Assembly: GCA_031310005.1 (NCBI GenBank)
Contig: CM062380.1
Span: forward strand, 1,240,001 to 1,304,000
Direction of reading: 5' to 3'
Length of the DNA: 64,000 nucleotides
From: Dactylellina haptotyla
Taxonomy: Eukaryota; Ascomycota; Orbiliomycetes; Orbiliales; Orbiliaceae
The notes beneath the pieces were generated by a model that was not told where the DNA came from, did no database searches, and saw only the letters and a program-made list of their open reading frames with translations. Below are positions 9,385 to 64,000 of the stretch, in pieces; within the stretch, counting starts at the first letter, position 1, and each line of letters begins with the position of its first letter. Made by a program: the position numbers and the translations under genes.

Positions 9385-9737
9385 AGTTAGGGTAGTTGGA
9401 TTAGCCACCATATATTTGGATCAATAAATTTAGATATTTTGTATCGGTTTATTTGCCCTAGGACGAATCAAGATGCGAAAGTGAACAAAAGCATTTGTGC
9501 CTTAATTTTATTGTTCTCCAATTAGCTCGCCTTCACCGGCCTATAGTTTCCAGCCCAACTTGGTGCATGTAGAAAACGGCCTCAAAACGAAGCATACCCA
9601 TGTCCACATTAACATCTCGTGGTACTCCCGTGCACGGGAGCACGTAGCTGAAAATAAACAATCTTCCAGAATCAAGCCGAGTAGTTTGTGGTAAACCCAG
9701 GTGGCAGCTAAGAACTGCTGCGGTCATATCTGACGAT
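9385..9737. other. Short intergenic spacer between two plus-strand genes
   Basis: AT-rich sequence with no gene on the plus strand. A 139-codon open frame on the other strand spans this spacer and the first exon of the next gene; its translation has no recognisable feature. Confidence 0.5.
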
Positions 9738-12700: not shown

Positions 12701-12914
12701 TATTCAGAAAATAGACTCGAAGTTGATCAAGCTGAGGGAGTTGAAGGTACAGACAGATACTGTGAAGAAGAAGACAATGGAGACATGGCAGAATCTATGG
12801 TATAGGCGGTTGAGAGATTTGGAGTTGAGATATTCTACTTGGAGGGATCTGGCGACGAAGAATATCGAGCGGACGCAGGCGAGGTTGATGTCGCGAGATG
12901 ACGGGCAACTGTAG
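9738..12914 (+). CDS. Large secreted protein, Pro/Asn/Gln-rich, unknown function
   Basis: Exons 9738-9935, 10047-12114 and 12175-12914 give 1001 residues. Intron 1 (111 bp, GTATGA...ATAG) joins GDDGGK to LQAFGIING in phase 0. Intron 2 (12115-12174, GTAAGT...ATATAG) is 60 bp with no stop, so retention would add 20 residues. Residues 1-23 form a signal peptide (LLLCGLLSASRTTAYF). A compact N-terminal region runs to about residue 200 with two or three cysteines and the stretch DWRWVQRSGVPNTSGRAVVF. A long Pro/Asn/Ser/Gln-rich, presumably disordered middle follows, then an acidic part, and the last 160 residues look like a charged coiled coil (KQARLLKDLERIRDDIQKID). I know no family for it. An extracellular or wall-associated role is an inference from the leader and composition. 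Confidence 0.78.
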
Positions 12915-25000: not shown

Positions 25001-25339
25001 CGTATCCATTGGAGGTTCAGAGGTAGTGCTCATGTCTCCCGTGCTAGTGGAGCTAGTATCATCTGTTGGAGTCGTAGTAGTGTCCGGCGGCGCTGTAGAA
25101 CTCGGGCTATCTGGAGGAACGCTGGTGCTATCCATAGGAAGGGTGCTGCTTGAATCACCTCCACTCCCGTAGCCGTCATCACCGTAACCATCTTCGCCAT
25201 AGTACCCGTCATCAACATACGAGGCGGCATCTTGCCTTCTTTGGATATGGTGACCTGGCTCAGCTATTGCTGCCGGGGCGGCTGCGGCAGCAGAAGCCAG
25301 CGCAAGTGCCATTCCGGCAACCAAAGTGCTGATACGCAT
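22040..25339 (-). CDS. Mucin-like secreted Ser/Thr/Pro repeat protein
   Basis: One uninterrupted frame of 1099 residues. A signal peptide (residues 1-20, MALALASAAAAAPA) is followed by H-I-Q-R-R-Q, a possible Kex2 site, and a Gly/Tyr/Asp-rich stretch (DDGYYGEDGYGDDGYGSGG). Residues about 60-790 consist of 8-9-residue units of the type P-P-S-D-S-S-T-A, expected to be heavily O-glycosylated and extended. A Ser/Thr/Lys-rich segment leads into a C-terminal region with about eleven cysteines (SNACVEQRKKCEKSYATSKRC as core), and the protein ends with a second Gly/Tyr motif (DGYGDGGYYRRLF). This layout fits a cell-wall or adhesive mucin. The short C-terminus lacks the hydrophobic tail expected of a GPI signal. 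No named domain is recognised. Antisense frames stay open only because of the repeat codon pattern. Confidence 0.85.
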   Translation of the reverse strand: MRISTLVAGMALALASAAAAAPAAIAEPGHHIQRRQDAASYVDDGYYGEDGYGDDGYGSGGDSSSTLPMDSTSVPPDSPSSTAPPDTTTTPTDDTSSTSTGDMSTTSEPPMDTSSSVPPGDSSVVTPTDETSTTSPGVDTTPVPPGDSSTVPPSDVTTTSPTDSVSSTDVPTTYPTDVPPGDTSTAPPGDSSTEPPSDSSTVPPDGPSTTSPTDEPSSTAPPGDSSTAPPPDDSSTMPPSDSSTVPPSDSSTVPPDDMSSTTTPAYDSSSTAPPGDSSTMPPSDSSTEPPSDSSTVPPDGASSTTAPPDESTSTAPPGDSSTAPPGDSSTTPPDDSSTEPPSDSSTAPPSDSSTVPPDGASSTTTPPDESTSTGPPGDSSTAPPGDSSTMPPSDSSTEPPSDSSTVPPDGPTTTSPGDDTSSTTPPDSSYVSPKDFSSTNPYGSSTTPPDDTSSTTESAYGSSSTEPPSDSSTAPPPEDSSTAPPPDESSTAPPSDSSTAPPSDSTTAPPSDSSTAPPPDESSTAPPSDSSTAPPPQDSSTAPPSDSSTVPPDDTSSTTTPTDNSSTTSPPDVSSTTPPDDASSTTTPVYDSSSVVTPKDFSSTSSGDTSSTTPPDESSTAPPSDSSTAPPPGDSSTVPPDGPSSTSPGDASSTVPPSDSSTAPPPGDSSTAPPSDSSTVPPDGPSSTSPSDSSYTLPPSDSSTAPPSDSSTTPPSEDSSTAPPPDSSSTVPPSDSSTVPPDDTSSTTTPAYGSSSTMPSSDSSTAPPSDSSSVPPDESSSTTTPTDNSSTTTPLGSTTSSTDGTSSTAPPPSDSSSTTSSGGSSTSPGGDTSTAPPPSSSTTTTSKGTSSAPTTTSNNSVSVKTVSSSSQTSSSTTSVSTKKTTSKPHTKYSKTTKTWKTSWKTTKSKSSKTTKHHTTSTKPSKPTKPSKPNKPDGPPKNSCCRMPNRSDQAKKKGVPSYPIGGFPASIVWTKDSKSYILIKLKGIESTCRTSYKYTIEEFQTACSNACVEQRKKCEKSYATSKRCTGSGKSKKCFTTTELKEHCSIQYTACKDANDISKNKKQMQDAMKTCPAPPKPKPSKPSNDGYGDGGYYRRLF
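22880..25080 (-). repeat. Coding VNTR: 24-27-bp units encoding PP-(S/G/D)-DSST-x
   Basis: The central part of the mucin-like gene is built from imperfect tandem units of 8 or 9 codons. Higher-order blocks are also visible: the segment starting V-P-P-D-G-A-S-S-T-T occurs twice (near 24440 and 24260 on the minus strand) and the two copies differ by gain or loss of one 8-codon unit. Copy-number change by slippage or unequal exchange is therefore likely. Confidence 0.85.
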
Positions 25340-28288
25340 AGTGAACGATTATTCGGGGAGTTCTCACTATATGTATTCAATATGCAATATTCAAACGCTA
25401 ATGAGTGTAAATATCCTGATATTGCGAAAGCAAAATTGTCGTTAAACAACCAAATGAGAGTGGTGATTCATCAAACAGACTAGAAGAACCAAAGGAAGTA
25501 TCGGACAAAAAAATGCCCACAAAAGAGAGAGAGGATGCTCAGTAAGAGCCCAAAGGATCGGGTGATGATGATAAAAAAACCGGATGCTGGATCAAGGGGG
25601 CCATCGACCCTATATAAAGATCGTGAATGTCGCCATCGACCCGAAGGTCCATTGTATATGCCCGGGTTGCATAAATTCCACAACATTGGCAGCTACAAGC
25701 ATAAGCCAGTGCCGCCGAGGCTGCCATGGCTGCCATGGCTCCTATGGCTCCGACGAGCGACATAGCTTTCGTGTGAATGTCACTTGGTGTTCCGGTTAGC
25801 CGTTGATGTGCATTCGGGAAGTCGGCTCTCGCGAAGTTTGGGGGAAGTACAATAAGTGTGTTGTGTGATGTTGGAGCCCTTTCTGGGCGCGCTAACCGAT
25901 GGGTTTGTTGGCTTCATAGAGGCGGTCTTAAGAGCGGCGAACACTAACAACACTAGTCAGGCTTAAGCTTTCCTTTCCAGCTGTTAACTCTGGAACTCGG
26001 AACAGGTTGATGACGAGGCCTTTCTCTACTCTAAAAGATGGGACGGTTTCTCAAGACAGGCAGCTCGGATCTAGCAGTAAATGTAGATCGAAGTTAGTGA
26101 CCCGGCTAGGACATCTTTTCTAAGGGACTATCGGCTTCGCGCACAACATATGTCCAGATATCGGTACCTTTACCGAGTGCGCTATCTATTCTATAGTCAG
26201 CCTCAGAACTTTGTGCTTCGTCGGGTTGGTTTAAGGGAAAAGTCTTGGCCAGCGAGGCAACAAGGAGTCCATGCATACCTCCAATAGACCACTCATTCTT
26301 TGATGAGGATACGCAAGTCGAGTGCCTCAGATGAGCATTCGAAAGCGAATTTTGCTTCGTCCTGCCCAGTATTTTGCTTAAAGTCCTATTTGAAACCGGA
26401 CTATAACATTCGCAAGTTTAATAAACGAGGTGGATAGAACTTTATTGACTCAAATACATCTAAATGTACCCGAGTTACCCAGTTACTGTCGTATAAGCAA
26501 CCTGATTCCGAACTCCGAGACTATAAGATTCTCTTTAAACGCCACTTACGTATATTAGAGAAAACTTCTCGCCAAAACGTTTTGACAGGCTAGATCTTGC
26601 ATCTTTTCGGTGCTTGATTGTTTCTCTCCTTGGATAGCGGCCGCGCGGCGCATCCGGGAAAACATTTTGAACTCCACAGCTACCAACTGCGATGTTGGAA
26701 GGTTGGTCGGCAGTAAACAGTTTCAAATATCGTAAACGGGTTCAGAACGAATATCATTGATTGATGTTTACTTCCAGGCGAGTTGTCCAGTATCGATACG
26801 GGTCCATAATTCCCTGGGAATTGATTGATTCGGTCTGTGCGCCTTTTGAAAGAGATCTTTGCTGATAGAGGCGCCTCGAATCGAGACGTGATAAGACCAC
26901 CCCGTCAGGACAGAATATGGTAGATCTCCACACAAGCTGGGAGCTTGGCTTCCCCGAAGAGAGACCCTACTTCCCCCAGAAATAACTAAATCGCATGTAC
27001 GTCGTTAAACCGGATCATAGACCAGTGCCAGTGAAGCAGGTCTTAATTAAGCTCAAGAGAACCCGTTCTTCAAATATTTTCGGGATATTCTCCGTCCGCC
27101 TTGGTGAAGTTAGAACATGCGAAAGCCGAGTTGGAGAGATTAGCTCCAATCTATGAGGACCTCCAACTGTCGACATTTCACGATATGTCGCTATCAAGTG
27201 TAGGCCCCAATTCTGGATCTTCGGGTTGGTTCTCGGTCGCAAGGTACGCGTACAGAATACTGGTTTCAAGTGATGCGCGTCGCTGCAGTCTGAATTGTTG
27301 TCCAAACGTATGTTTTGGGCAACATATTCTCTCCTCTTTGGCCAATCGGATGGGTGGCCATCCGCAGCGTGCATGACCCAAACAACACAGGATTCTTATC
27401 CCCTTACAGCGAGCCAATTCTCCAGTCCAGTAACCAGACTTGCCAATTCTCATAACTAGAACCGAGGAGAAAATGCTAAAGCCATTTATCGCTGCAGCGC
27501 TCTTGGAGATCAGAACTTGTGGGGTTCGGCTTGACTAGTACTAGTTCGAATCAACAAAGAAAGCCATTTTGTGTCTACTTTACCATGCTGACTATAAGTT
27601 ACGAGCTATACACACCGAGGCGATTGCCAAGATAGTTGCAATTGTACTCTATGGTAGTAGGTATTTAGTTTATTATGATTAAGCATCATATTTTATAACC
27701 CAATAGGCTGCTCTCCCTCGGCGTATAGCTATTCTTTACCTGTAATTATAGCCTCAAACGGGGACCATGTCGAGCATCTCATCTCTCGATAGCCTATCCA
27801 TGAACGGATCGAATCGAATTTCGCCAACGTGCTGGATAAAATAGCCAATGAGCCAATCGTAAAATGGCGAAACCTGAATTCAGCCGCCCAGTCTTGGAAT
27901 AGGGACCGACGGAAGAATTTTGCAGAGCATTTGTTCACCAACCTATTGTCTGAACACTGGTCGCCCGGAATTGCGGGGTCGCTTCCCGGTTGAAATGGTG
28001 AGCGGCACCCCTGCTACGTGTTGAATATAGGGTATGAGAACTTCACGACCTGCCGACCTAGGAGCCCTGTTCCCAGATGGCGGCATCATATTGTGCGCAC
28101 AAAGCTAAAATATATCGCGAACCACGGTTAGGGGAGCCGTTAAAAACGCAGAATTACATATTCTGGTATCTGGTTTTTTTTTTTACATAAGAACCATGGA
28201 TTGCCCTACATCTTCTTATTCTCTCGGTCTCCCAGTTAGAAACTGTGCGTATTGAATTCCAACAATACCCAACACATAGTGCACCATT
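25340..28288. other. Long intergenic region with no clear gene
   Basis: Almost 3 kb between the mucin-like gene and the GH16 gene. A small minus-strand frame (25763-25539, 74 codons) begins with an Ala/Met-rich hydrophobic stretch but has no other support. At 27679-27993 the plus strand reads as a plausible protein fragment broken by one in-frame TAG (27790). I find no transposase, terminal repeat or RNA gene. Confidence 0.5.
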
Positions 28289-45970: not shown

Positions 45971-47261
45971 TCAGTCAATAAGCTTAGTGATCAGCTTTCC
46001 TGTATTTTCACTACCAACAAAGTTAGCAACGTTTTGTTATTTGCTGAACCAACAGCAAGGAAATTCAAACTAACCCTTTGCCTAGCTTGATCATCCCTTG
46101 TGGAACATCTTCAATAGTTGCTTCCCAGACTTGCTTCAGAGGCTTGATCTTTCCTTCCTGAACCCAAGTTTGGATGTCGCCGAACCCCTTCATCCACTCA
46201 TCTTGGAATTGGAAGATAATAAAACCTTCAACCTTAACTTTACTAAGAATCTGTAAAGTCACATAAGTTAACACCTGCCATTCCGCGCGAACCTAAGGCG
46301 AATTTCAAAAGTCCCACTTACAATTTGCGTCCAAGCCTTTGGTGTTATCTTGTTGGCGCCGGTGCCGGTTGCATCATATGTGCTAATCGCGCCACAGGCG
46401 ACAACTCGTCCAAAATCCTTCATTCTTTTCAAAGTCAAATCCAAGATCTCGCCGCCAACATTATCAAAATACACATCAATCCAATCCGGCGTGGCTTTCT
46501 CTAGATCCTCGGCGAAAGATTGTGATTTATAGTTTAACGCGATATCGCAGCCGTACTCTTTAAGGATGGCGCATTTCTCCTCAGTCCCAGCTATACCAAT
46601 AACATTCTCGACTCCGAGAACATGCTTGGCAATCTGACAGGCTACAATACCCGTTGCTCCTGCCGCGCCAGAGATAACGATAGTCTTATCCTTTGGCGTT
46701 GCTGCTCCGACCTTGAGGAGGCCAAAGTACGCTGTTAAAGCCTGTTTTCCCAATTGAGTTAGCGCCGCTTTCGATATTTCTGTCAGAGGTACTCACTGTG
46801 TGACCTAAAGAAAGCCAATCTGCTGGTGGAATAGTAACTTTGAATAAAGCCTTCGACGAAGGAATAATTGAATACTGAGTCCAGCCGAGATCCGCCTGGA
46901 TCAAATCACCCTTCTGGAACTCTGGGTCTCTGGATTCGATAACTTCCCCAACACAAATGGCGTCCATGAGCTCACCAGGCATAATTGGCTAAAGATCATT
47001 GGTGTATGTTATTAGTATGTACAATTTCTAGAAAAATGATTAGGATATAATATGCACCTTACGATACGATCGGCCTTCAGGGAAGTATTTGCTGATCCAA
47101 ACCCGCTGCGCGGGATCATTCGACATATGTGTTGTTTTAACAAGGAGTTCGCCGTCTTTTAGGTCTACGAGACCTTTGGTTACTAACTGGAAGGTCTTTT
47201 CCGGGTTCATGTTGTCGGTAGGCGACTCCTTGAGGAGCCATTGTTTCGTGGTGTAAGGCAT
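45971..47261 (-). CDS. NADP-dependent MDR-family reductase (alkenal/prostaglandin reductase-like)
   Basis: Five exons, 47261-47058, 46988-46797, 46741-46322, 46250-46075 and 46010-45971 (introns 69, 55, 71 and 64 bp), give 343 residues. Conserved wording is that of zinc-free medium-chain reductases such as leukotriene B4 dehydrogenase/prostaglandin reductase: MSNDPAQRVWI, the acyl-side loop IMPGELMDAICVGEVIES, ALTAYFGLLKVG, the nucleotide-binding AAGATG (158-163), GCDIALNYKS, DVYFDNVGGEILD and GRVVACGAIS. These enzymes reduce the alpha,beta double bond of enals and enones with NADPH. No structural zinc cysteine set is present, as expected. The last exon is 40 nt and supplies ENTGKLITKLID. It is the first of five minus-strand genes toward the PKS and could act on a polyketide enone, or be an independent detoxification enzyme. 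Confidence 0.9.
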
Positions 47262-48343
47262 TTTAATTGAGATCGTTTGAAGTTAGGTATACAATATTAG
47301 GTATTGTTAAAATTATTTATTTTTATACTGTGAAGCAAAGAATGATTGATGATTTAATAAATGAGTTTTGATATTTGTGGGTTCTCGAATATACTGTTTC
47401 CTTTTAAATTAGAATCTAGAGTTTTTTATAGTGGTTTTGTGAACCTATGTTATATAGCCAAAAAGGTTGTGAAAGCCATCGACAACACATGAGGCAAGAG
47501 TTGACGGATCCATCATGCAAGACCGGCGGGAAATGGTCCGAGGTCGCCAGGGTTGTTGGAAAAAGCCGCCGACTTTACAACCTGACCTTGGGCATTCGCT
47601 ACATATTTTCTAGTATACAAATACCCTAGCAGGACTATGCATCAGTGTCCGAAAGTCCGATCGAATCCGAAGGCAATTTCGAGCATATTCAGAATATATC
47701 TACCAATGGACAAACTTAAGCAGACGGTCGACTATTTAGTATTTATCTGCCTAGAATGGGCCTACAGCAGTATCGATTCTAGATCCCTAACATCGGCTGC
47801 AAACCATGTAGGTCTTTCACCTTGTCAAATTTCGCGATGTATCCGTAGATCTACATACAGCAGAGATAAGCAGATTGATTTAGTAATTTCTATTCTGCCG
47901 AATTAATTACAAGTGTTGCTTGTGATCCTAAGAACTGTAGAGCAGGTCACTTTCTCTTTTTTGTATAGTTTACACAATTCAACTTCCATATTTGTGCATA
48001 TGCGGATGTTCGATTCCTTTTACAAAGGATTGATTAAATTATTATCCAACTAACTACACAATTGAAGCAAAAAGTAGCTCTAATGTAAGTAAGTTTCCAA
48101 CCCATCAAACACTGATATAAACGCGCTTGAAAGATTAGTAAAGCCAAGAGTGAAAAGATAAGTCTCAGTGAGTTGCCAATCTTGGTTGTATTGATCGCCA
48201 GCCTGGAAATTGGAGAGAAAAAGGAGATCATGAAAAAGAAATTTGCCTTCTCCTTGTGGAAAAAGATATGCTCGCAGTATCCAAGAGCCTTTTTAATTTG
48301 AAGATTAGCCGGAGACATGGATTTCGGTTAATAGAGCTGACTA
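47262..48343. other. AT-rich spacer
   Basis: About 1.1 kb between the MDR and SDR genes. Short frames at 47447-47906 have no recognisable content. Confidence 0.5.
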
Positions 48344-49548
48344 TCAAACTTGGACATAATTCATCACCAGCTCTTGGAGCCATGATGGCCATCTACAGTC
48401 CAACGGAATTTTTACTATTAGTTCTACTTCCACTTATAAAAATAATGCGGCGTAGCGAGCTAGGAGTTAACATACCCTCGGATCCCTGTTATAAACGAAT
48501 AAGTGCCCGGAATCAAGAGCGGACCACGACTATATCCTCCTAGAATTAAGTCTACCATTGGTTTAACCACGTCGTCCAATTCCAAGATTGGAACGCCCCT
48601 CTTCCGTAGTGGGCCCTCCCAGTCCTTAGCTACCATTGGAGTATTTGTCCAGCTTGGGTTGATCAAACTAGTTCTGACTTTATCCGCTTTGTAGACATGC
48701 CGTAGTTCTTGCCGCAGTACTTCGTGAAAAGCGACAAGTCCATGTTTTGTGACACAATACTCGCCGAGTCCACCCACTGAGATAAAACTGGCAAGACTCG
48801 CGACAGATATAACGTGTCCGTGGTTGTTCTTTATCATTGCCGGAAGAAATTCTTGTACCATCGTGAAATGACTTACGAGGTTGACATCCATTAATTTTTT
48901 AATATTCGGAATATCATAATCAAGGAGGTACCCTTTACTCGCCATCGCGGCGTTGTTAACTAAGATAGTTGGGTCCCCGTGCTCCTTGCGGATTTGGGCG
49001 GCAATTTTTGATATTCCAATATTGTCACTGATATCACAGCTATACCAATGTACATTTTTAACTGTGTCATAGCCATTAGAGTCCAATTTGATGAAGAAGG
49101 TGGAAGATGTCATTAACTTACGATTTGCAACCTCAGCTTTCAGTGGGCTTCTACTGATAGTAATAACTTTAACACCCCGTTTGGCAAGTAATTCGGTCAT
49201 GCGTTCGCCATACCCACTGCTAGCCCCAGTAATCAACACTATTTCCCTTTTCCAATCGTATGTATCTTTTCTCCAGTTATTTTCTGCGCCCCATGACAAA
49301 TATGAACTTATCTTCAAACAAATACCAATACAAAATGCACCAGTAATACCGGAGAGCCCGGTTTCAAGCATTGTAGAAGAAATATAGCGAATAAATACGT
49401 CCAACACCGGTTTTCTGATCTCGGTGGGAGCGAAATTAAGGGCAACAATGAAACCTGAAACTAGCGGGTTGACAACACATGATACTGCTATACCAGCAGC
49501 CACTGACATAAGACTACTAATAATAGGGGCCATGATGATAATCTTCAA
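48344..49548 (-). CDS. Membrane-anchored short-chain dehydrogenase/reductase (SDR16C-like)
   Basis: Exons 49548-49122, 49061-48476 and 48392-48344 (introns 60 and 83 bp) give 353 residues. N-terminal hydrophobic stretches (MAPIISSLMSVAAGIAVSCV and SGITGAFCIGICLKISSYL) suggest anchoring in ER or lipid-droplet membrane. The classical SDR core follows: GASSGYG (108-114) for the cofactor, C-D-I-S-D, N-N-A-A (178-181), the catalytic serine near 231, and Tyr244 with Lys248 in GEYCVTKHGLVAF. Order and wording resemble retinol dehydrogenase/DHRS-type fungal SDRs. The first intron is stopless and divisible by three; removing it restores ANLKNVHWYSCDISD. The second donor (GTATGT) joins IRG to WPSWLQELVMNYVQV. 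Its place beside the PKS suggests oxidation or reduction of a polyketide alcohol or ketone, by inference. Confidence 0.87.
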
Positions 49549-50516
49549 AAACCGGTGCCAAAGTATGCTTTGAGGTCGCTCAATTTGATATAAAATACTG
49601 CCGTTCTTGTGCTAGAATATAAGTGCGACCTAAAAATCCGAACGGAGAGCAATAAATCGATGTATCCTATAATTAAGAATGAACAGAAAAAAATATACGT
49701 TCTCGAATATATATACCATAACTTTCCACTGGAACTTTCGGCATACGGTATAGATCTATTCAATCAACTTAGTTCCGAACAAGATACCAATGTACTTGTC
49801 GTATGTTGAATCAAGACTCCGATTTTCTGAGGTCCGAAATGTCTATCGATGACTACCTATCTTAAAATATTACCCGAAGTTGTGGAGGGGGTAAACATAT
49901 ACCAATTGCAGTTAAAAACTTTAATAATCGGCTTTGTTGGTTGTCCTTGGGGTCCTTATCTTGATACCTTCCTAACCAATGTAACGCTTCTAGGAACCCC
50001 TGCTCGCCAAAGAAACCCGAAATTCAAAATTTCAAAGATCGGCATCGCGGCATTCCGATCGACTAAGAGCTACAAAAGGAAGGAGTAGACTTGAACCACC
50101 AATGCACGATATCCGAAGTTTGGCCGAAGGTGCATGAAGCGAAATCCCTGCAACTATTGTCGTAAATAGTTTAAAGTTTGTAATGTCCAGCTGGATATGG
50201 AATGTGATAATTCTGCCGTATTGCGTGGTTGTGCCTATCACAGGTTCGAGTGTTTCGTGCTTGTGAGTATGCCAGTTTCAAGTCACCAGCTAGCAGTGCC
50301 AACGTTTTTTTACTACGGCTTGATCAATTTAACACATCCGATACTTCAACGAGAACTAGACACTCACTACTTAGCCCGCAGAATTGGTTCTCACTAAGTA
50401 CCACATGAGCTTTTCGAATATTCAAAGTATCGACCGTATTGAATTATTCGTCTAAATTACCCTTTAAAGGTTCCAAAGAGATAAAGAGATATATTCGTGT
50501 ATTTGAATAAGATACG
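49549..50516. other. AT-rich spacer
   Basis: About 1 kb holding the SDR promoter and the 3' end of the next gene. No gene is supported. Confidence 0.5.
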
Positions 50517-51213
50517 TTAACATTTTGGATTTGAAATTGGCCAGATATTTTCACCTTCTGGCAGTGGTGTTGCAGTGCCATTCAGAATAATACTCGTATA
50601 CGCGTAAAATCCAACATAGTGTATGAGTGCCCCAGCTCCAGCCTTCCCGAATTCTTCCTCTGCCCGTTTCCACAAACTCTCCGAAAGCGGGCCTTTCGTG
50701 CCAGGTGTAGAGCCAGCTCCGACAAGGGCTCTAGCTATCTCCCAAGAAATAATTTCTTGTTCAGTTCCTCCCGAAGGTGGTCTGCCTTCCAAAATATCTT
50801 GTATCTGACAGTCTTGCAACCCTACGTTCTTCGCGACGCGGGCATGGCTGTAGAGCTCGAACGCAGCGCCATAGTGCTCTCCCACAGCTAATATAGCAAC
50901 TTCCCGACATCGAGTTGAAAATTCAGATATGCTTGCGAGAGACGATCCACTGAGGAAGTATCCGATGGCTACGGAGCGTGGAAGGTATAGGAAATGAGTA
51001 TATGGGCCTACCAATGCCCCAGTGTCTTGATTCTGGATTGTGAAGCTATATTTGAAAGGTCAATATTTGGTAGTATGGAAAATAAAGGAGGTAATATATC
51101 AAAACTTACGTGCCTTGAAAGTACTGTCCGATTTCATTGAGTAAATAATCATGAGTATCTTTTTGGTAAGGGTTAAGAGCATTTGGGGCGAGCGGAGAGT
51201 ATCGCTCCAGCAT
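50517..51213 (-). CDS. Carboxymuconolactone decarboxylase-like (CMD/AhpD fold) protein
   Basis: Exons 51213-51110 and 51045-50517 (64-bp intron, GTAAGT...ATATAG) give 210 residues. The start MLERYSPLAPNALNPYQKD is followed by GALVGPYTHFLYLPRSVAIG and then the CMD core TRCREVAILAVGEHYGAAFE, LYSHARVAKNVGLQDCQI and DILEG. The AhpD C-x-x-C redox pair is absent, so it belongs with the carboxymuconolactone decarboxylase-like side of the family, where a His and Glu near the core helix take part. Such stand-alone proteins are frequent in fungal genomes and occur in biosynthetic clusters, where a few have been given roles in cyclisation or decarboxylation. The function here is unassigned. Its position 1 kb downstream of the PKS 3' end, on the same strand, makes it a candidate tailoring protein. 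Confidence 0.85.
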
Positions 51214-52180
51214 TCTTCCGGCTATTTTGATTAGTTCGATAAAGTTTTGATTTACAATGATCCAATTCGTCTATAGAACTTTAGTAAAAGGGATTTATTT
51301 GTATATTTATAATTACGAGCTCTGTGTGGGTCATTGCCTTCGGGCCTAAAAGCTACGGAAAGCCTCCAACAAGCCGAAATTTATTGCCAATATAACCAAC
51401 TACCTCGGAGGAAACTTGAGAGAGGCATGTGCGTAAAAAAAAAAAAAAAAAAAGAAGTAAACTCTTATTGTCCTATCTAGAAGCTCGGCGCCGGCAGCGA
51501 AGATAATAATTTTCTACCCCCGAGTAAATAATTTCTATTGTCTTCGGTGTTCTTAGAATCTAATAAATAATTTGTCACGTTAACCAAATTCCGGAGGCAA
51601 ATAAATAATACACAATATGGAAATAATAATTTCCTACGGGACAAGATATTAAAACCTTTTCTGGACCGGGTTATAGCTTTAGAGCGTGGAGACTGTAGAT
51701 GTTAAATTCAAGCGCTCGGTCAACAATCGAAAGAAACTTCAGGGTTCATTATTTTGCATAGCAACCTACGGAGACCTATAGAAGTGACAATAGGTAGTGC
51801 TGTCTACTAATTTTGATGAAGCAAATTAGGCAATTATTTGATTTGGTCTGCTGTGGTAAACTAAGACTGTCTTTGAGGGTTACATATGGTATTCCCTTAT
51901 ATATATGTGCCCTTAGGCCAGTTTCATTCCTGGATATTGCGTATTGCTCTGATGCTATGAGTCGACGATAATACGTAGGAAATTCTAAGGACAATAGGAT
52001 ACCAAAGGAAAAATAAAACAGATTGGGTATTGCTAGGGAGAATATTACATATGAAAGACAAAGAAAGAGAATAGGCTGCCAGCTTAAGATACTCTATGAG
52101 AATATTCTACTTAATTTATAACATACAAAGTTCATGAAAAATATTCATTGATTTGATGTTCGATACTTCAAGACAATTTG
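51214..52180. other. AT-rich spacer with an A19 run
   Basis: No gene is supported between the CMD-like gene and the PKS stop codon. A run of 19 A residues lies at 51435-51453. Confidence 0.5.
51435..51453. repeat. Poly(A) homopolymer, 19 bp
   Basis: Nineteen consecutive A residues in the spacer upstream of the CMD-like gene. Such runs are slippage-prone and can also mark an old retrocopy tail, but no retrocopy is visible beside it. Confidence 0.8.
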
Positions 52181-55100
52181 TTATTTGGCTCGACTTGTAC
52201 TTCTCTCTACCACGGAGCTTGCCAAAGCAGTAAGACTGGGCGCACCCAAAATTTGGAAAGTTGGTACATCTGATCGGAAGTATCGCATAAACCAACTTCT
52301 CAACTCCATCGTTTGGAGGGAATCTACACCATATGCCTGAACAGGTTTGGTCAAATCCATCTCGTCTTGTTCCATGCCGGCAATAGTTGAAGCAAGTCTG
52401 TTGGTCAACGCAGCTATGACAATATCACAGGCCTCCCTCTCAGATTTTGCTGCGGAAAACTGTGAAGCAATATCCATTTTCCCAACAGCCTTAGATTCAA
52501 TATTTTTAAGAAGACGTAGCGCTTGAAACATGGGATTTCTTCCCCATATCGTGCCAAGAGGGTCTAACTCCGGATCGGTATAAAGTAATTTCATGCCGAG
52601 AGTGACTTGGGCCTGTTCAATTGGTAGCAATGGCTGACTGCAGTAGTAGTCCAGTAGCGCAATAATGTCGGGTGTTTCAACTCCGTGATACGTATTTTGC
52701 GCCAGCAAAAGTTCCCTTTCGTCTTTGTGGTCCGCTTCGGCCAAGTATCCATCGGTTGTTACTACTCCCATCATTACAGATACTGCTTTCAATCCGTGAG
52801 CCACGCGGTGGTGCGCCAGAGCATCCATATATGTGTTGGCGGCATTATAATTTGCTTGAGTTCTTGCACCAAACACAGCCTGGACTGATGAAAAGAGAAT
52901 AAAAAAGTCTAGGTCTTTTGGTAGGAGGCTATGAAGGTTCCAACTACCTGCGACCTTGGGAGAAGTTGCCTCTGTCCACTCTTGGTGTGTCATTTCCGTG
53001 AAGAGTGCACTCTGCAGATCCTATTAGTTGTGGTCAATTTACAGCTGTTATGAAGAAATTTAACATACCCTCAATACCATTGTAGATTGAAGGCATCCCC
53101 TGATGGGAGGGATGGTTCCCGCGAGCTTCCGCAGCGTGGCATCGAGCATGCCGTAGTCGGAGATGTCACACGCCGGTGTGATGCAGTTGACACCCATGGC
53201 TTCTAATTCAGAAACTAGAGCTTTCGAGGACTTCGTCTGTGGACCAGACCTCGATAATAAAACCAGATGTTTTGCACCTCTCTCTGCCATCCACCGCGCT
53301 GCAACACGACCGAGTCCTCCTAGGCCACCTGCAATAACATAAGTAGCATTGGGTCCAAAAGAAGTCATTTTCGGTGGCGACAATACCGCCTGTTTTTGGG
53401 GAGATGATTAGAAATCCAGCAGATATATTCGCAAGGATATTATGAGTATTTCTTACCTGAACCTCGCTCTCAGGGTTAGTCTCTACAACGATTTTGCCGC
53501 TCGATTTTCCCGTTGCGATAAAGCGGAAGGCATCTACCACCTGCGAAATGTCGAACTTGTGAATTGGGCTATTTTGCGTTGTGGATCCGGATTCGTCGAC
53601 TGCAGCAGGAGATCTGACTGGCCGGAAATTACCTTGCGTAAAATGCAAAAGAACTTCGTCCACTAACTTTGCGACATGTCTTGGTCTTGTGATAAACATA
53701 TGGCCTAAATCGACTGCGCTGAAGGAACAATTCTTCTCAAATTGTGCCATGGGGAGTCTCTTTTGGCCCTGAATATCCTTTTTGCCAATCTCCACAAACC
53801 GCCCGAATGGTGCAATGGATTCCCATGATCCAAATAGTGCTTCTCCTGATAAAGAGTTGAATACAACATCGACACCACGCCCTTGTGTAAGGCGACTGAT
53901 CTCCTTTACGAAGGCAGTATCTCTGCTGTTGAAGATGCACTCCGTAGGGATACCATACTCTCGGATAAGTAGTTCCCGTTTTTCGGGCGTACTCGCCGTC
54001 GCGAATATCCTCGCTTGAAGGTGCTTGGCGACCTGGATGGCAGCCTGACCAGTCCCACCCGCTGCAGAATGGATCAGGACCGTTTCGCCTGGCACAATTT
54101 TAGCAACATACTGTAGAGAATGCCAAGCAGTTGCAAAATTGATCGGGATAGATGCAGCCTCAGCCAAACTAAGGCACTCTGGGATAACTGATACGCTCGA
54201 AGCTTGGGTTCTATAAAAGGTTCGATAGCCGTCTGTAGAAAACCCACAGACACGATCACCCGGTATCAGACCATGACCCTCAACGTCACGACCAACACTA
54301 GAGACAATCCCTGCCATTTCGCTGCCAATGCTATTCTCATTCAGAGCTCCTAGAGCAATCAAACAATCTTTAAAGTTCAACCCAATCGCCTTGATTTCTA
54401 TCTTGATTTCATTATCTTTAAGACATAGTCCAAAGTCATTTTCCTCGTCTTTTACAAACCGTAGTGTATCTAGAACTCCAGGCGATCCAACTGTAATCTT
54501 CAGAGGTGTCTTTGAACCCCATGGTACGCTTGTCTTTGCGAGAGCCAGTCGGCCTGACTGCACTTTCTTCGTTAGTTCAGCATTTTCTTTTAACTGCAAA
54601 AACTCTATCTTTCCAGATTTTTCTTCTTGGTGCGAGTTAGAGCGGCCACACAGGCCATTACAATCATCTGAGGCTATATATCTAAATGTTTGCGGGAGGT
54701 TGAAACTATCAGTTTCAGAAAGTAAATATTGGCAAATCTTAGATATAGCCCCAGAACGGTCGGTTGTCTTGTTACTCGCGATCGATAAGGTAGCAAAGCT
54801 TGCCATGCTATTCTCCTGGCGAACGACTCTTGAGAGGCCATCGACCAAATGTTGTGAAGGAAAATCAACAGACTGTGGAGTAGAGGTTAGTATCCAGAGT
54901 ACATGATTGTTTGTATTCAATGTCTTTTGAATCATCGACAGAGTCTCACTATTGACATTCGAGAGAATAGATTTTCTGTCAAGATCCCATAGAATCACTT
55001 TGATGTCAGCAGAGACTTGAGCTTCAATCTGTGCTGACTCAATGACCTCGCATTTTGCCTTCATTCCCAGGCAGGATTTTAAACAATTTGCTAATTCAAC

Positions 55101-58100
55101 CGTAGCGAAATTCGGCTGATAAATATGGATTTCGATCAAGGGTAATTTATCGTTATCAATTGAATCGTTTAGCGTCATGGAAAGAGGTGTCCAAGCAAAA
55201 TCCCAACAATGGTGAAGTTCATTCAATGAAGCTTCTTCCAAGATATCTTCACCGGATACTCGAACCATCTCATAACCAGTGATCTCAATCTTTGGTGTTC
55301 CCTGAGAATCAGTCACAGAAACGGAATGCTCGCCACCCCGGTATCCGTAGAAGTTCAAGCGTGCTGTAGCGGACAAGCTTGATGCTTCTGTATGGTTTAA
55401 GCCATTGTTAGATAACCACAATGTCTTCAAGCGAGAAGGTACCATTGTTGGCATATCAGGTGCTTCTCGCATAACATTAGCGAGAGGAAGCTGAAGAAAA
55501 GCATCGAGTGTTGTAGGATGAACTACGTGAGAATAGTCGTAGGCGCGAGTTCCGTGTCCACGACGCGATCCAAACTCAGCTTTCTCGTATACAGCCACAC
55601 TTGCTTCGGTTTCTCCAGCGGCTAAAAGTTTGATATCATTGATTCTCCGGAATAGTGGCCCATATTCATACCCAGCTTTCCTGATTCCCTCGAAAAATTT
55701 CTCGGTTGATAAATGGATTGGGACCGCCTTGTTGTTCTTAGGCCGTTCAATTCTGCTAGGATCAGCATCTGACTCCATTCGAATCAGTCCTTTACAGTTC
55801 TTTTTCCATTGTTCACCTTCATATGAGAAAACATTAAATTCGAACCAGCAATCAGGTTTAATTGATTCTTCTCCCATGAGCTTTAAGTTAATTTGAGTTT
55901 CAAACTCAGCAGGAGCCTCAGGTACTTGCATTGCCGTAAGGAATTCGATATCTCGAAGAGAATACGCTGCTGGCGTCATATCGAAAATTTCCTGCGAATA
56001 TTGCTTCATAGCCTCAATCGCCATCGCTAACATTCCAGCACCGGGATAAATCACAACACTGTTAATACTATGGTCATCAATCCATTCCGATTCTCCTCGG
56101 TGCAAAAAATTACGCCATGAAGCCGAGTAGGGATTCCAATCTGGTGATGGATTTCCTAGCAATTCATTGGGACGATAATTGCGCAATCTCTCATTTTTGC
56201 TCCGCTGGCTCTCGCTCCAGTACGTACGCGAATGGGAAAAAGGATAGGGCGGTAAATCGACAAGAGGAATTGTCTTTCCACCTTCATCGCCATTGAGATA
56301 TGAGATATTCGGCTTCAGTCCGCAGGCGTTCAGATTTCCTGTAGCTTGGAGTATGGAATTCAATGCTGAAATTCCTCGAATTAGAGCCGAATCATATTGA
56401 ATATCGCTTGCATGTCCAGATTTAAAAGTCTTGAAAATTTCTCGTAGTGGGCCTTTTAGGGCGCTGTGTGGGCCAATCTCCAGTACGTTTGTGATAAGGA
56501 TTCCTTTCTCTTGACGTCTGTTCAACCGTTTTGGACTCTTGGCAGCCAATGCGAGACGGTCTATTGCTCCGACGTTCTTGGTAAAGTGAACTGTTGAGCA
56601 CATATTTTCAATCCAATAGTCTAGTTCTCGTAAACGATCTCCCGAGACTTCTTTCCCGTCCATGTAGGAGATCATCCGGATAGAATCGACTTTAGTGTTT
56701 AGGCGCGCCTTAAGCTCTCCAGCTCGAGAGAAGTGCTCTTTTGCAACAGTTGTCATGTGCGGTGAATGATATGCGCATGTAACCTTTAATTTTCGGGCGA
56801 AGATGCTCTTCTCATCTAGGGCAGTCTTAAGAAAATCGATATGATCTTTGTTACCAGCAATTGTGACGTTACTAGGGCTGTTAACACAGGCGACATGAAG
56901 ATCGTCGCAACCCTTTGTTGCCATGATTTTGAGGTAACCTAGGGCCTCTGTTTCACCAACCCCCACAGACATCATAGTCCCATTGCTGCTTTTAGATGCT
57001 TCAGCTCCACCAATGCCTCTATAGTAGGCAATTTTAATAGCGCTCTGGTGTGAAATAGCACCTTTGCAATATCTATATTGCTTCCGGTTAGAAACTCACC
57101 CAAATTCAATCGATCAACAAGTCACTTACGCTGCTGCAACTTCGCCAGATGAGTGGCCTAGAACCAGGCTAGGCTTTATGTTAATTCGTTCCATAAGGTC
57201 AACAAGGGCAACTTGCAGAGCACAGCTCATCGGTTGACTGATCTCAGGGTCGCTGATTCGAGGATTTGATTCTTTGTTCATCTCTTCTTCCAAGTTCCAA
57301 GTACAGCCAAGTTCATCAAGATACCTCGCAGAATCTTTGATGCTCCGCAGAAAGACTGGATATTGCATCAGTTCAACCCCCATCTTTGCCCATTGCGCAC
57401 CTTGACCCGTAAAAACAAACGCAACTTCCGGGTTATCGATGGACCGGCGAGGAATCGAGGGTTCTATAGATTGCAAAGACCTCTTTGAATCAACAATCGC
57501 GTATGATCTCCATGGCAACTGAGTTCGGAAATTGTTCAAAGTGAAGGCTAATCGCTGGCAAAATTCACTAGTTTTAATATTATCGTAGTCCGAGTCCTGG
57601 AAATAAGTGCTAAAAGAGCTAGTGATTCGCTTAATCCCTCCTTTATCAGCTGCAGATAGAGGCAGAAGATATGGTCGAGAGCTCTCTGTGGAATAGCTAG
57701 TTTCTTGATTTTGGGCGATGGTTCCATCAGCCAAAACAGAGTTCGGGTACCCCTTAAAGCTAAGAACAGGGGGACTTTTAACTGTGTTATGGTAACCATC
57801 AAGACCCCTGTCCGTCAAAAAGTTGTAGGCGTCATCGAGGACTACATGCGCATTAGTACCTCCAAAGCCGAAAGAATTAACGGATGCTCTGCGTAATCCT
57901 TCCGTTGGCCAAGATAGCGCTTCCGTCGGAAACTGATAAACGGTCCCTCGTCAGTATATAACTAAGCGGCCCGGATGTCTCCTAACACAGAACTTCTTCT
58001 TACATTCAGTCGGTAATGCTTGTGATCGATATTTGGATTGAGGTCCACGAGATCAGCGATAGGGGGAATTATACCACGTTCTAGTATAAGTATGGATTTT

Positions 58101-59551
58101 ATAATACCAGCAATACCGCTAGCAGCTTCAAGATGCCCAATATTCGCTTTACTCGCGCCACTGTGTATAAAGAATTGAATTAGCTTCGTAAGGAATAGAT
58201 AAGACCTGGCACCATGGATAGGGTATTACATATAAAGTGGATCACTCTCGCTACGAACAGCTCTAAAGGAAGCACCAATCGCATGAGACTCTATCGGGTC
58301 CCCTAACAATGTTCCAGTACCATGGGCTTCGCAGAAGCGGGTTGGTTCCATCGATAAGCCGGCTTTTTTATAAGTATCTTTGATCATCTCAAATTGGGAG
58401 TCTCCGCTTGGTTGAGTGATTCCAGGGGTGTATCCATCTGAATTTGTTCCTGTTGAACGTATCACAGCCCGAATCATGTTTTTGTCTCGAATAGCATCAG
58501 AGAGTCGTTTCACCAATATCACGCCAAATCCCTCTGAGCGAGCGTAGCCATTCGCACGAGAGTCGAAGCTATGACAACGATTATCCGGCGAGAGGAATCC
58601 CATATTATCCAAATAGAGAAATAAATCTGGCATCAGCATTAGGCTGGTACCAGCTACAATACCCTGCAGAATATATCAGCATCACATATTTCTTATATTT
58701 CGCTTACTCGAGTTAATTGCAAGAGAAAAACTGCAAAAAAACTGCAAAAAAAAGCCATGGTAAACTCAAATTCGAGCGTGATCTTACTAAGTTCGTCTCC
58801 CCGTTCCTCAGCAGTTGGCAAGCTAAGTCCATCGCAACTAAGCTACTTGAGCACGCCGTTTCAACGGACATACTAGGGCCTTTCAAATTGAAAAACCAGC
58901 TTAGTCTGTTGGCCAAGATACTGACTTCAGTTCCGGTTACAGAGTATTTTGCAGCTGCCTCGGCATCTCTGGAGATCGCAAGTCTATAGTCGTAAGATAG
59001 ACAACCAACGTGAACTGAAGTTTTGGTCCCGTTAATCTCATCAAGATGTAAGCCAGCTAAGAGGTTTAAGCATCAGTCTAAACCTCAAGTCGATAGCGAA
59101 AGCATGATAAAAATTGGATGAAAGCCAAATACCATTTTCTATTGCATGGTAAGTTGACTCAAGCAGAAGTCTTTGTTGAGGATCCATAGCCACCGCTTCT
59201 TCCGCAGTTATTGAAAAGAATGGGGCGTCAAAGGCGCCAACATTCCCTTTCATGAAATACCCTTTTGGTTTGTTGAGCTTTATCCAAATTTCATTAGCGA
59301 TTATGATAAATAATATCCTAAGGGATGAATTTAAATACCTCCGTGTCAGATTTCCCACCATGGATGTTTAAGAACGACTTCAAATTCATTCTATCGTCAG
59401 GTATCTGTGATAGACCGGTATCTCCATCCATCATAACTTGCCAGAAAGCTTCTGGGCTTTCAATTCCAGAAGGAAATTTAAAGGCAAAACCAATTATAGC
59501 AAGTGGCTCCAAGCCCGCCTGCTGCGTTTCTACCATCTTATTTTGAGTCAT
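52181..59551 (-). CDS. Highly reducing type I polyketide synthase (KS-AT-DH-psiKR-ER-KR-ACP)
   Basis: Nine exons: 59551-59339, 59277-59133, 59056-58788, 58663-58230, 58160-58004, 57932-57130, 57072-53457, 53389-53069, 53020-52181, with eight introns of 48-124 bp. All phases agree and give 2265 residues without a break. KS (about 14-440): Cys188 in VETACSSS, His323 in EAHGTGT, His363 in KANIGH. AT (about 545-870): Ser667 in GHSSGE, His776 in CAYHSPH. DH (about 975-1270): His1008 in [15 protein letters not shown] and Asp1197 in [11 protein letters not shown] non-catalytic KR-like part (about 1295-1480) precedes ER (about 1535-1855) with [13 protein letters not shown] (about 1880-2080): GGLGGLG, Ser2031, Tyr2044, Asn2048. 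ACP: Ser2220 in [11 protein letters not shown]. No methyltransferase and no thioesterase or reductase release domain follows. A reduced, unmethylated chain is expected, though the amount of reduction per cycle cannot be read. Confidence 0.95.
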
Positions 59552-60890
59552 TGTGATGCCGAAAAGCGGACAAAATATCTATACTATTGGACGGAGTAGA
59601 TATTTATTGGGACGCAATTCAGGTATCCCGATTTGAAGATGAGCGGAGCAAGTCTGGGCTGATTATTTGTGTGTTATGTATTAATCATACTAATCATAGG
59701 AATACTGTGGGTACCTTTCGGAAATGTCGTTGTTTGTAGGATAATATTAATATTCTAAATGCAAGTACAATATAGTCTTTTTATCGCATATTCGACGGTT
59801 TTGTGCCCCAATAACATTACAGTCCACCGAATTTAAAGTTTAGTATCGGTATAAAGCATAGTACAACACCGAGCCTCCGAAACACTTCGGCGACAAGGAG
59901 GTACCATAGTAGAATTCTTACCCGCTTTCGAGTTCTGCGTTAATATTGACGGACGTTGAAAATCCTTCCTGGTAGCAATAAAGGAAACATATGAAACAGC
60001 TTGAACCCAAATTAGTGTAATACGTAAGGATATCCGAAAATCCGATGCACAAACGGACCTTCCCCAGGAATCACATCCGAGGCATGTCGAGTAGGAGCAT
60101 ACTCGTCTGTAGACTAGACTAGGAGCACATATGTGTTGCCTATTGAGCTACGGAGGGCACATTTGTTTCTCAGCTTTGCAACTATGGTTTAGAGTACGGA
60201 TGTGAGAAATTGGGATAATATTTCGACTAAGTGTCATATTCTGGATTTTGGCAGAAAATTTTCCAAAATCCAAACATTCAAAATTACAAAATGAATGCGA
60301 GCTCTTAGCAGCCATCATCCAAATTCGATAAAGCGTTGTGAAATGGCTGATGTACTCTCGTATTCTGATTAGCCAGGTACCCCTGTCTGAGTACTCATGG
60401 TAGTAGGCTGTCAACTGCCAATATGCTCTGGTCATGCAAGCAATTCTATCCTGGCTGTTTCTAGCCTCTTGAAGCTAGTCTTTATGATTCTCAGATATCG
60501 ATTAGCTTTGTTAGCGCTAGCTTCAGACTGCTACACATTATTTCTGACTCGTGTCTGCATTGCTAGCGCTTTGGTTCTGGAGAAAGCCCTGGCTGTACAC
60601 GTAGAGTCGAAAAAGTTCGGAGGGGGCCGGGCGACCCGATCGTGGGCCCTATTATAACAGTAGACTGATAGTCTAATCTGGACCAACATTCTACCATATA
60701 CAGCAACTATTCCCCATGAGTACTACAATATAGTCTGAACGGCTTGAGATATTTTCTAGTAGTCATCAGCTATGAGGGTTACAAGAGTTTTCTAGAATTT
60801 TCTCTAAACTACCTTTAAAAGAGGAAGCTCCGCATGCAAATTATACTATATTCGACGTTTTCGAATAATCTAGACTAATAGCACTACCTG
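59552..60890. other. PKS promoter region
   Basis: About 1.3 kb between the PKS start and the hydrolase stop. It must hold the PKS promoter. An 86-codon plus-strand frame at 60397 shows no recognisable content. I did not find a clear palindromic activator site by eye. Confidence 0.5.
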
Positions 60891-61736
60891 TTACATAGAT
60901 GCTGCGTCAACTTCCAAAAGGGTACGCCGGATAACATTCACAGCGGCTTGGAGCACCTCTGGAGTTCTTCTACTTGGTACTGTGTGCCCTTCTGTGTGCA
61001 CATGCGAATGTCTAACTTGAGGAAGACATAGTTTCTCGAGAACAGCACTCATTGAAGGCCCCCATTTATCATTAGTCGCCCAGACATGAGCCGTTGGGAT
61101 ATTTATCTGTGATAAATCGTAATTTTTATCCAGCCAGATTACCTCACCCCGGTGTAGTGCACTCCAGCTGACAGGACCTCCTGCTGCCAAGAATATGCAA
61201 CATTTGAAGGGGTTCTTCCAATTTCCCTGATTGCTGTCCAACGCTTTGCCGAGCAGTAAGGTAGAAGTAAGTGCACACCCATGCGAAAATCCAATTACTC
61301 CATCATATGGTCCCTCATCTACAATATATTGTTCCAAGTCTCCTATTGCTTGAAGCATGCTTTCCGCATTATAAGGATCGTAGTATGCAAGATACTCATC
61401 GTCATCCGAAAACAGGTCCCCAAGTTCTATCCAATCAGTTCAAAATCAGTTTATTGCAAATAAGAACCGGGGTGTTGGACTTACCTGGAGCCTTTGGCCA
61501 TGCCATCGTTCCATCAACAAAATCATACGTATGTCCATCACCGATTTCAGCTCTGATCGCAGCTATTTACAAATTTTAGAAATTATCCGTTGTATTCATT
61601 AGAAGTTCTACCGAACCTATCTGTGTTTCAAAAACCTATTTTCTCAAGAATAAGTCCTTATCATCTTCCGCAACTAAAATGCACATTCTCTTACCTTGCT
61701 ATTGGTACCAAGACCGTGTAGACAAAGAAAACGCAT
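60891..61736 (-). CDS. FSH1/LovG-type serine hydrolase (candidate PKS product-release esterase)
   Basis: Four exons, 61736-61695, 61635-61617, 61562-61485 and 61426-60891 (introns 59, 54 and 58 bp), give 224 residues. Exon 2 is a 19-nt micro-exon (V-F-E-T-Q-I plus one base). The assembled start MRFLCLHGLGTNSKVFETQI, then AAIRAEIGDGHTYDFVDGTM, is the standard FSH1 opening. The triad is visible: Ser94 in GFSHG, Asp166 in WATNDKW and His194 in HTEGHTVP. FSH1-fold hydrolases include LovG, which releases the product of the lovastatin HR-PKS in trans. The neighbouring HR-PKS has no release domain, so a role as its offloading esterase is a reasonable inference, not shown by sequence. Same strand as the PKS, 1.3 kb upstream of its start. 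Confidence 0.9.
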
Positions 61737-63864: not shown

Positions 63865-64000
63865 CTACTTGACTTTTTTTAAGATTAATATTGTTTGTAC
63901 AATCTCGATCTCCATCTTTTTGATATCCTTGAGGATCGTATCGCTAATTCCAACTGTAGACGTTAAGCCCAGAGTACCATCAGATGGAATTTTTACCAGA
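63865..64000 (-). CDS. Possible C-terminal exon of an unknown gene, cut by the right edge
   Basis: The minus strand is open from the window edge to a TAG at 63867-63865, giving 45 codons with balanced composition (LVKIPSDGTLGLTSTVGISD, then a Lys/Ile/Glu-rich tail ending KKVK). The length alone is not significant and no family is recognised. It is listed because it runs off the edge next to a biosynthetic cluster and could be the end of a further cluster gene. Confidence 0.3.
   Translation of the reverse strand, partial: LVKIPSDGTLGLTSTVGISDTILKDIKKMEIEIVQTILILKKVK

Follow-up and report, generated by a model that had tools for sequence, protein, structure and literature searches.

Locus A, which lies on contig CM062380.1 of Dactylellina haptotyla strain YMF1.03409 (GCA_031310005.1), is read here as one regulated six-gene polyketide cluster encoding a Zn2Cys6 transcription factor (TF), an FSH1-type serine hydrolase, a highly reducing polyketide synthase (HR-PKS), a CMD-fold protein, an SDR and an MDR, in which the hydrolase would release the chain and the CMD-fold protein would process it. 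The probability of this reading is put at roughly 0.6. The TF, FSH1, PKS and CMD genes probably belong together, and the membership of the SDR and MDR genes is less certain. The stretch analysed was positions 1,240,001-1,304,000 of the contig, 64,000 nucleotides in all (the window), and coordinates past 64000 continue the window numbering to the right. An earlier note on this DNA had described five consecutive genes on one strand with complete exon models. When the models were built by hand, exon by exon and without transcripts, the five minus-strand genes were recovered at exactly the same coordinates and with no internal stops in their translations. All five genes are thus real, but the set was incomplete, as a sixth gene, that of the Zn2Cys6 regulator, crosses the window edge.

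Recurrence of the PKS, hydrolase and CMD genes in the genome

The genome searched comprised 11 contigs and 39,806,839 bases; contigs are named C1, C2 and so on, and locus A is on C2. A KS search returned 27 rows, counted as 11 loci, with a single PKS on C2 and a C7 locus that was taken as a predicted fatty acid synthase. The neighbourhoods of six KS loci, A to F, were read, with 1,851 bases in D and C8 0.489-0.501 Mb outside the coverage and sister open reading frames (ORFs) shorter than 130 aa left out. Accessory families were named from Pfam, with two exceptions named by similarity, the D acyltransferase-like gene and the SDR2 genes of C, D and F.

Seven FSH1 genes were found in the genome, five of them at clusters A-E, 1.1-9.4 kb from each of five related HR-PKS genes, and two away from PKS loci. 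The CMD search gave seven rows representing five genes, all of which lie about 1.0-19.9 kb from an HR-PKS. PKS A-E share 50.9-64.9% pairwise identity over 2152-2199 residues, compared to 33-36% between PKS F and A-E, and the five CMD proteins are 41-67% identical. Judged by eye, breaks between tblastn high-scoring segment pairs coincide with seven of the eight PKS A intron positions for D and E, and with about five for B and C, which argues that PKS A-E descend by duplication. The identity matrices of PKS and FSH1 across A-E were strongly correlated (r 0.975; counting the observed order, 2 of 120 permutations reached this value), as were those of PKS and CMD across A-D (r 0.963; 1 of 24 permutations as high). 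If the genes were placed independently, all five CMD genes would fall no more than 20 kb from any of 10 PKS loci with a chance of about 2e-10; this value is not taken at face value because duplicated blocks are not independent, and the linkage is treated as one or two events kept through duplication. In cluster F, the CMD-SDR2 pair may have been recruited a second time, by a different PKS. SDR2 itself is represented by six genes with 51-100% identity to the B copy (B copy included), found in B, C, D and F, beside the TF relative on C8, and on C7.

These findings support well the proposal, made in the earlier note, of a biosynthetic cluster with an HR-PKS and a LovG-type FSH1 hydrolase at its core: in this one genome the PKS, FSH1 and CMD genes recur together, partly accompanied by TF relatives.

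Cluster D (C3:68001-110738) is larger than A, with an added P450, aldo/keto reductase, acyltransferase-like gene and SDR2. When its PKS is projected by tblastn, Tyr replaces the His of the DH motif, at a site adjoining an intron boundary, and the nucleotide motif of the ER is degraded.

The highly reducing PKS

PKS A matched the Pfam KS, AT, DH, ER (ADH_zinc_N), KR and PP-binding domains in one chain of 2265 aa. An sdrA-like Rossmann model also matched and is read as a psi-KR. No methyltransferase domain and no release domain was matched by Pfam in this protein. The motifs retained were KS Cys/His/His, AT Ser/His, DH His/Asp, KR Ser/Tyr/Asn and the ACP Ser; the DH motif carries one Ser, presumably where Gly is usual. 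In the PDB the best matches of the KS were 7zma and LovB 7cpx (E 2e-110 for the latter). With a KS-AT-DH-ER-KR-ACP order and intact motifs, PKS A falls among the fungal highly reducing PKSs, and a reduced polyketide would be its product. The intact catalytic residues noted previously were found again, both in the PKS domain motifs and in the Ser, Asp and His of the hydrolase.

Possible regulation and extent of the cluster

The predicted TF of locus A has an N-terminal six-cysteine cluster, C-X2-C-X6-C-X8-C-X2-C-X6-C, which is the canonical Zn2Cys6 spacing; its match to Pfam Zn_clus has an E value of 0.001 and scores 19.5 bits (cut-off 21). The search for TF relatives gave eight rows representing four genes, located at A, at D, 17 kb from PKS C, and on C1 away from KS loci. 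On C8, positions 483993-488326 contain both a TF relative and one more SDR2 gene, 15-19 kb from PKS C.

The motif TTCGG was chosen after a k-mer scan of the locus A promoters, and all counts of it and its longer forms given here are exploratory and uncorrected. It occurred 27 times in 5.95 kb of these promoters compared to a background of 2.17 per kb (65 windows of similar G+C on the same contig), with eight copies in the SDR promoter, six in the PKS, four in the FSH1 and three in each of the TF, CMD and MDR promoters. Sister promoters were counted once the TF distribution was already known. For clusters C and D, each with a TF relative in or close to the cluster, 39 copies were found in 8.72 kb, compared to 10 in 5.99 kb for the pooled promoters of B, E and F, where no TF relative was found and no enrichment was seen (binomial p 0.002 for C and D versus B, E and F; P 0.04 for C alone). 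The extended form CTTCGG was enriched in the 15 sister promoters (13 copies, P 0.0009). The TF may control the cluster genes, perhaps through TTCGG half-sites, as these counts hint.

SDR A has an adh_short match (2e-37), and among solved structures it is closest to 17-beta-HSD11 and 13. By hydropathy, a strongly hydrophobic stretch makes up its first 35 residues, and the protein is probably membrane-bound. MDR A matched ADH_N_2 and ADH_zinc_N, with 4b7c at 1.5e-62 and PGR1-type structures at about 1e-51 to 1e-53. The claim that the five genes form one pathway is supported in part: PKS, FSH1 and CMD recur together, and the SDR and MDR are included with less confidence. The functional cluster may instead be limited to TF, FSH1, PKS and CMD, with the SDR and MDR as downstream neighbours drawn from general lipid or aldehyde metabolism; this smaller cluster is a serious possibility, at clearly less than even odds. 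In its favour, the best relatives of SDR A are on C7 and C9, neither at a KS locus; the best MDR paralogue, with 63% identity, is a non-cluster gene at C1:2.757 Mb; and the MDR promoter is near background in TTCGG. In contrast, the SDR and MDR genes are on the same strand as the others with ordinary spacing, the SDR promoter is the richest of the six in TTCGG, and cluster D also contains an MDR.

Several further observations weigh against the six-gene reading. No relative of SDR A was found in the other cluster loci read (B-F); B, C, D and F carry the different SDR2, which was not found in A over 112 kb. A fixed module was not seen: E is without CMD, F without FSH1 and A without SDR2. When F was included, the correlation between PKS and CMD identities weakened to r 0.64, a value reached in 21 of 120 permutations. 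No CGG-Nx-CCG palindrome was shared among the six promoters of locus A, and the TF, CMD and MDR promoters were all near background in TTCGG. By joint score TTCGG ranked second among 512 5-mers, below the AT-rich AAATT, and TTTCGG was not enriched in the 15 sister promoters (11 in 14.7 kb, P 0.70). Taken alone, CMD protein A is below the Pfam and NCBIfam cut-offs, and PcaC-type decarboxylase titles matched its predicted structure, described below, poorly in Foldseek (4g9q at rank 30 with probability 0.38; 2q0t at rank 34 with 0.41).

Proposed release of the chain by the FSH1 hydrolase

The hydrolase of locus A matched PF03959 at 1.6e-28 and retains the motifs GFSHG, ND and GH; in all five cluster copies the triad motifs keep their Ser, Asp and His. 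LovG releases an HR-PKS product by hydrolysis, and HR-PKS clusters with FSH1 hydrolases are known. A hydrolase of the LovG type is expected near an HR-PKS and evolving with it, and both features were found here, proximity at five of five loci and divergence in step with that of the PKS. Substrates differ widely among FSH1 proteins, and two more FSH1 genes lie away from PKS loci, so the enzyme could instead edit or cleave esters, with the chain freed by another route. This is unlikely: PKS A has no Pfam-matched release domain, and an FSH1 gene is near each of the five related PKS genes with divergence that tracks theirs.

The CMD-fold protein

CMD protein A matched PF02627 at E 0.009 in one search and 0.006 in another, scoring 16.4-16.9 bits against a cut-off of 23. 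All five members of the family in this genome matched PF02627 at E <= 1, the best at 6.6e-9. NCBIfam gave weak PcaC matches only, for three of the five members, and against the PcaC equivalog TIGR02425 the protein scored 12.2 bits, far from the cut-off of 155.7. A sequence search of solved structures with the CMD protein returned two matches only, at E about 0.06 and unrelated, and one with the family profile returned no match.

An AlphaFold2 model was made from exon 2 of A only, with an alignment of two sequences (mean pLDDT 70, pTM 0.69). Of Foldseek ranks 1-29 for this model (probability 0.98-1.00, TM 0.52-0.69 by query), 22 carried AhpD, CMD-family, peroxidase-related or antioxidant titles, and the remaining seven were PA0269 and the debrominase Bmp8, which belong to the same superfamily as AhpD/CMD. 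The best E value was 4e-3, with none at E <= 0.001. The model indicates that CMD protein A has the AhpD/CMD helical fold, and the family matches of all five members together with the fold predicted for exon 2 fit its earlier description as CMD-like.

The thiol chemistry of AhpD needs a CxxC pair, and this pair is absent from all five members; the place that it takes in AhpD reads AAFE, APYE, APYE, APYE and VEFM. A His after that place is invariant in the five members, and a Glu four residues before the His is kept in four. In bacterial contigs the CMD pattern was found in 94 stretches, and one CMD relative was confirmed, in Microbacterium album (L056:4839-5483; 31-32% identity). It keeps the Glu and His and is without CxxC, and its neighbourhood, inspected by eye, gave no functional lead.

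Since AhpD-type and peroxidase-related proteins head the Foldseek results, above PcaC-type entries, a protective AhpD-like peroxidase or thiol protein with no biosynthetic role was considered; it was set low and is highly improbable, as the peroxidase cysteines are missing in all five members, which makes thiol peroxidase chemistry unlikely, and CMD genes were found only near HR-PKS genes. An acid-base step is proposed because the peroxidase cysteines are absent and the His (5/5) and Glu (4/5) are kept; its assignment to the CMD protein is doubtful. More broadly, and tentatively, the CMD protein could be a dedicated non-redox catalytic partner of HR-PKSs in this nematode-trapping species, and perhaps in related ones. 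It would decarboxylate, isomerise or cyclise the FSH1-released chain, and would have been multiplied with the PKS and hydrolase into A-D, of which three have the regulator in or close to the cluster, and borrowed with an SDR by the distant PKS of F. If true, the tailoring chemistry would be new and the family of metabolites expanded, and these might serve in predation.

Proposed pathway

Under the six-gene reading, the Zn2Cys6 regulator would switch the genes on, perhaps via TTCGG half-sites, and the HR-PKS would then assemble a chain without branches that is reduced or in part unsaturated. The product would probably be a fatty small molecule of polyketide type. An unbranched, reduced chain is expected because no methyltransferase was matched and the KS, AT, DH, ER, KR and ACP motifs are kept. 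Like LovG, the FSH1 hydrolase would free this chain from the ACP in acid form, as its family and co-duplication with the PKS suggest. By acid-base chemistry, the CMD protein could act either on the acid after its release or on the beta-keto chain while still bound; the simplest reactions would be decarboxylation or isomerisation of a double bond or lactone. Least certain is the last step, in which the oxidation level may be set by the SDR, probably bound to a membrane, and by the MDR of the enone-reductase type. The motif losses projected for PKS D suggest that family members may degrade, and locus A might by analogy be a silent duplicate with no present product; this is very improbable, as the checked motifs and reading frames of A are intact.

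Gene models, flanks and other reading frames

The coordinates of the locus A features and of the sister clusters are listed in Table 1. Every intron in the five rebuilt models has GT-AG ends; the second FSH1 intron has a weak 5' site (GTTCGG). To the right, past the TF gene, are an ORF without a Pfam match and then a 2OG-Fe(II) oxygenase ORF, and the left flank of locus A has a DUF3431 ORF and an ORF without a Pfam match. The P450, acyltransferase-like, aldo/keto reductase and SDR2 genes of the sister clusters had no match at E 1e-4 in 112 kb around A, a region in which transporters and other kinds of P450 were not systematically searched.

Table 1. Features of locus A (window numbering) and gene content of the six clusters read
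Feature	Position	Strand	Description
Zn2Cys6 transcription factor	65428-63865	minus	exons 65428-65174 and 65115-63865; 501 aa; last 136 bases (63865..64000) inside window
FSH1-type serine hydrolase	60891..61736	minus	exons 61736-61695, 61635-61617, 61562-61485 and 61426-60891; 224 aa
Highly reducing PKS	52181..59551	minus	9 exons; 2265 aa; KS-AT-DH-(psiKR)-ER-KR-ACP, psiKR as read
CMD-fold protein	50517..51213	minus	exons 51213-51110 and 51045-50517; 210 aa
SDR	48460..49533	minus	1 exon; 357 aa; hydrophobic N-terminus
MDR, prostaglandin reductase/2-alkenal reductase family	45971..47261	minus	5 exons; 343 aa
SDR promoter	49534..50516		8 TTCGG half-sites (putative regulator sites); exploratory
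PKS promoter	59552..60551		6 TTCGG half-sites (putative regulator sites); exploratory
Cluster A	C2, this locus		TF, FSH1, PKS, CMD, SDR, MDR
Cluster B	C10, 1.763-1.778 Mb		PKS, FSH1, CMD, SDR2
Cluster C	C8, 0.503-0.520 Mb		PKS, FSH1, SDR2, CMD, acyltransferase-like (PapA_C match 2e-7)
Cluster D	C3, 0.073-0.110 Mb		PKS, TF relative, FSH1, aldo/keto reductase, P450, CMD, acyltransferase-like, SDR2, MDR
Cluster E	C4, 2.610-2.620 Mb		FSH1, PKS, FMN-dependent dehydrogenase; no CMD
Cluster F	C4, 3.601-3.616 Mb		SDR2, CMD, distant PKS; no FSH1

Elsewhere in the window, a minus-strand frame of 1102 aa at 22040-25348 has a signal-like start and long Pro/Ser/Thr repeats of the type D-S-S-T-x-P-P, and perhaps encodes a surface protein. 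Large frames at window 10047-12914 and at L009:5729-7711, the latter without a Pfam match, are alike in style by eye and possibly lineage-specific. Adjoining frames at L012:2214-3200, 6644-7516, 7796-8659 and 8981-9481, about 94-101 kb in the extended numbering, have starts such as PRELQIEILSYLSFEDH, an F-box-like pattern.

Comparison with known systems

In the accessible text of PMC10580851 (2023), the antiSMASH PKS biosynthetic gene clusters (BGCs) 2.1, 3.1, 4.2, 4.3, 8.3 and 10.2 of YMF1.03409 are among those newly found, and the cores of 2.1, 3.1, 4.2 and 4.3 are said to resemble two proteins of strain CBS 200.50. Locus A should be BGC 2.1, because the contig number fits and only one PKS was found on C2. 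The cluster had been called new in the earlier note; as PKS BGC 2.1 it would already be listed, although that text does not give its gene content, regulator, partner genes or product. As a point against the reading of locus A, a related CBS 200.50 protein is said there to have a cMT domain, and none was found in PKS A. Nosporins C and D are polyketides from the same strain, and nothing in the accessible text of PMC10672892 ties them to locus A.

A CMD-fold partner multiplying with an HR-PKS was not found described in the literature searched, which is weak evidence of absence as most subscription journals were outside it. Locus A is ordinary in cluster type, and within that literature the multiplication of the CMD partner with the PKS is the apparently undescribed point. 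The recurrence of CMD genes near HR-PKS genes points to a helper role of the CMD-fold protein, and the five versions in this genome make the CMD step directly testable. The regulator marks out a group of clusters for activation, and the accessible parts of the literature found link no D. haptotyla polyketide to a gene.

Among known systems, the lovastatin pair LovB and LovG is compared first. Locus A shares with it an HR-PKS related to LovB and a separate FSH1-family hydrolase. In contrast, locus A has its ER in cis, no matched MT domain and no LovC-type gene among the six, and it adds CMD, SDR and MDR partners. The CMD family of this genome matches the AhpD/CMD superfamily (PF02627) at E <= 1 in all five members and has its fold as predicted for A, but is without the CxxC of AhpD and far below the PcaC cut-off. 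The nearest solved relatives of the remaining two enzymes are the 17-beta-HSD11/13 SDRs and the prostaglandin reductase/2-alkenal reductase MDRs, which are here encoded beside a PKS.

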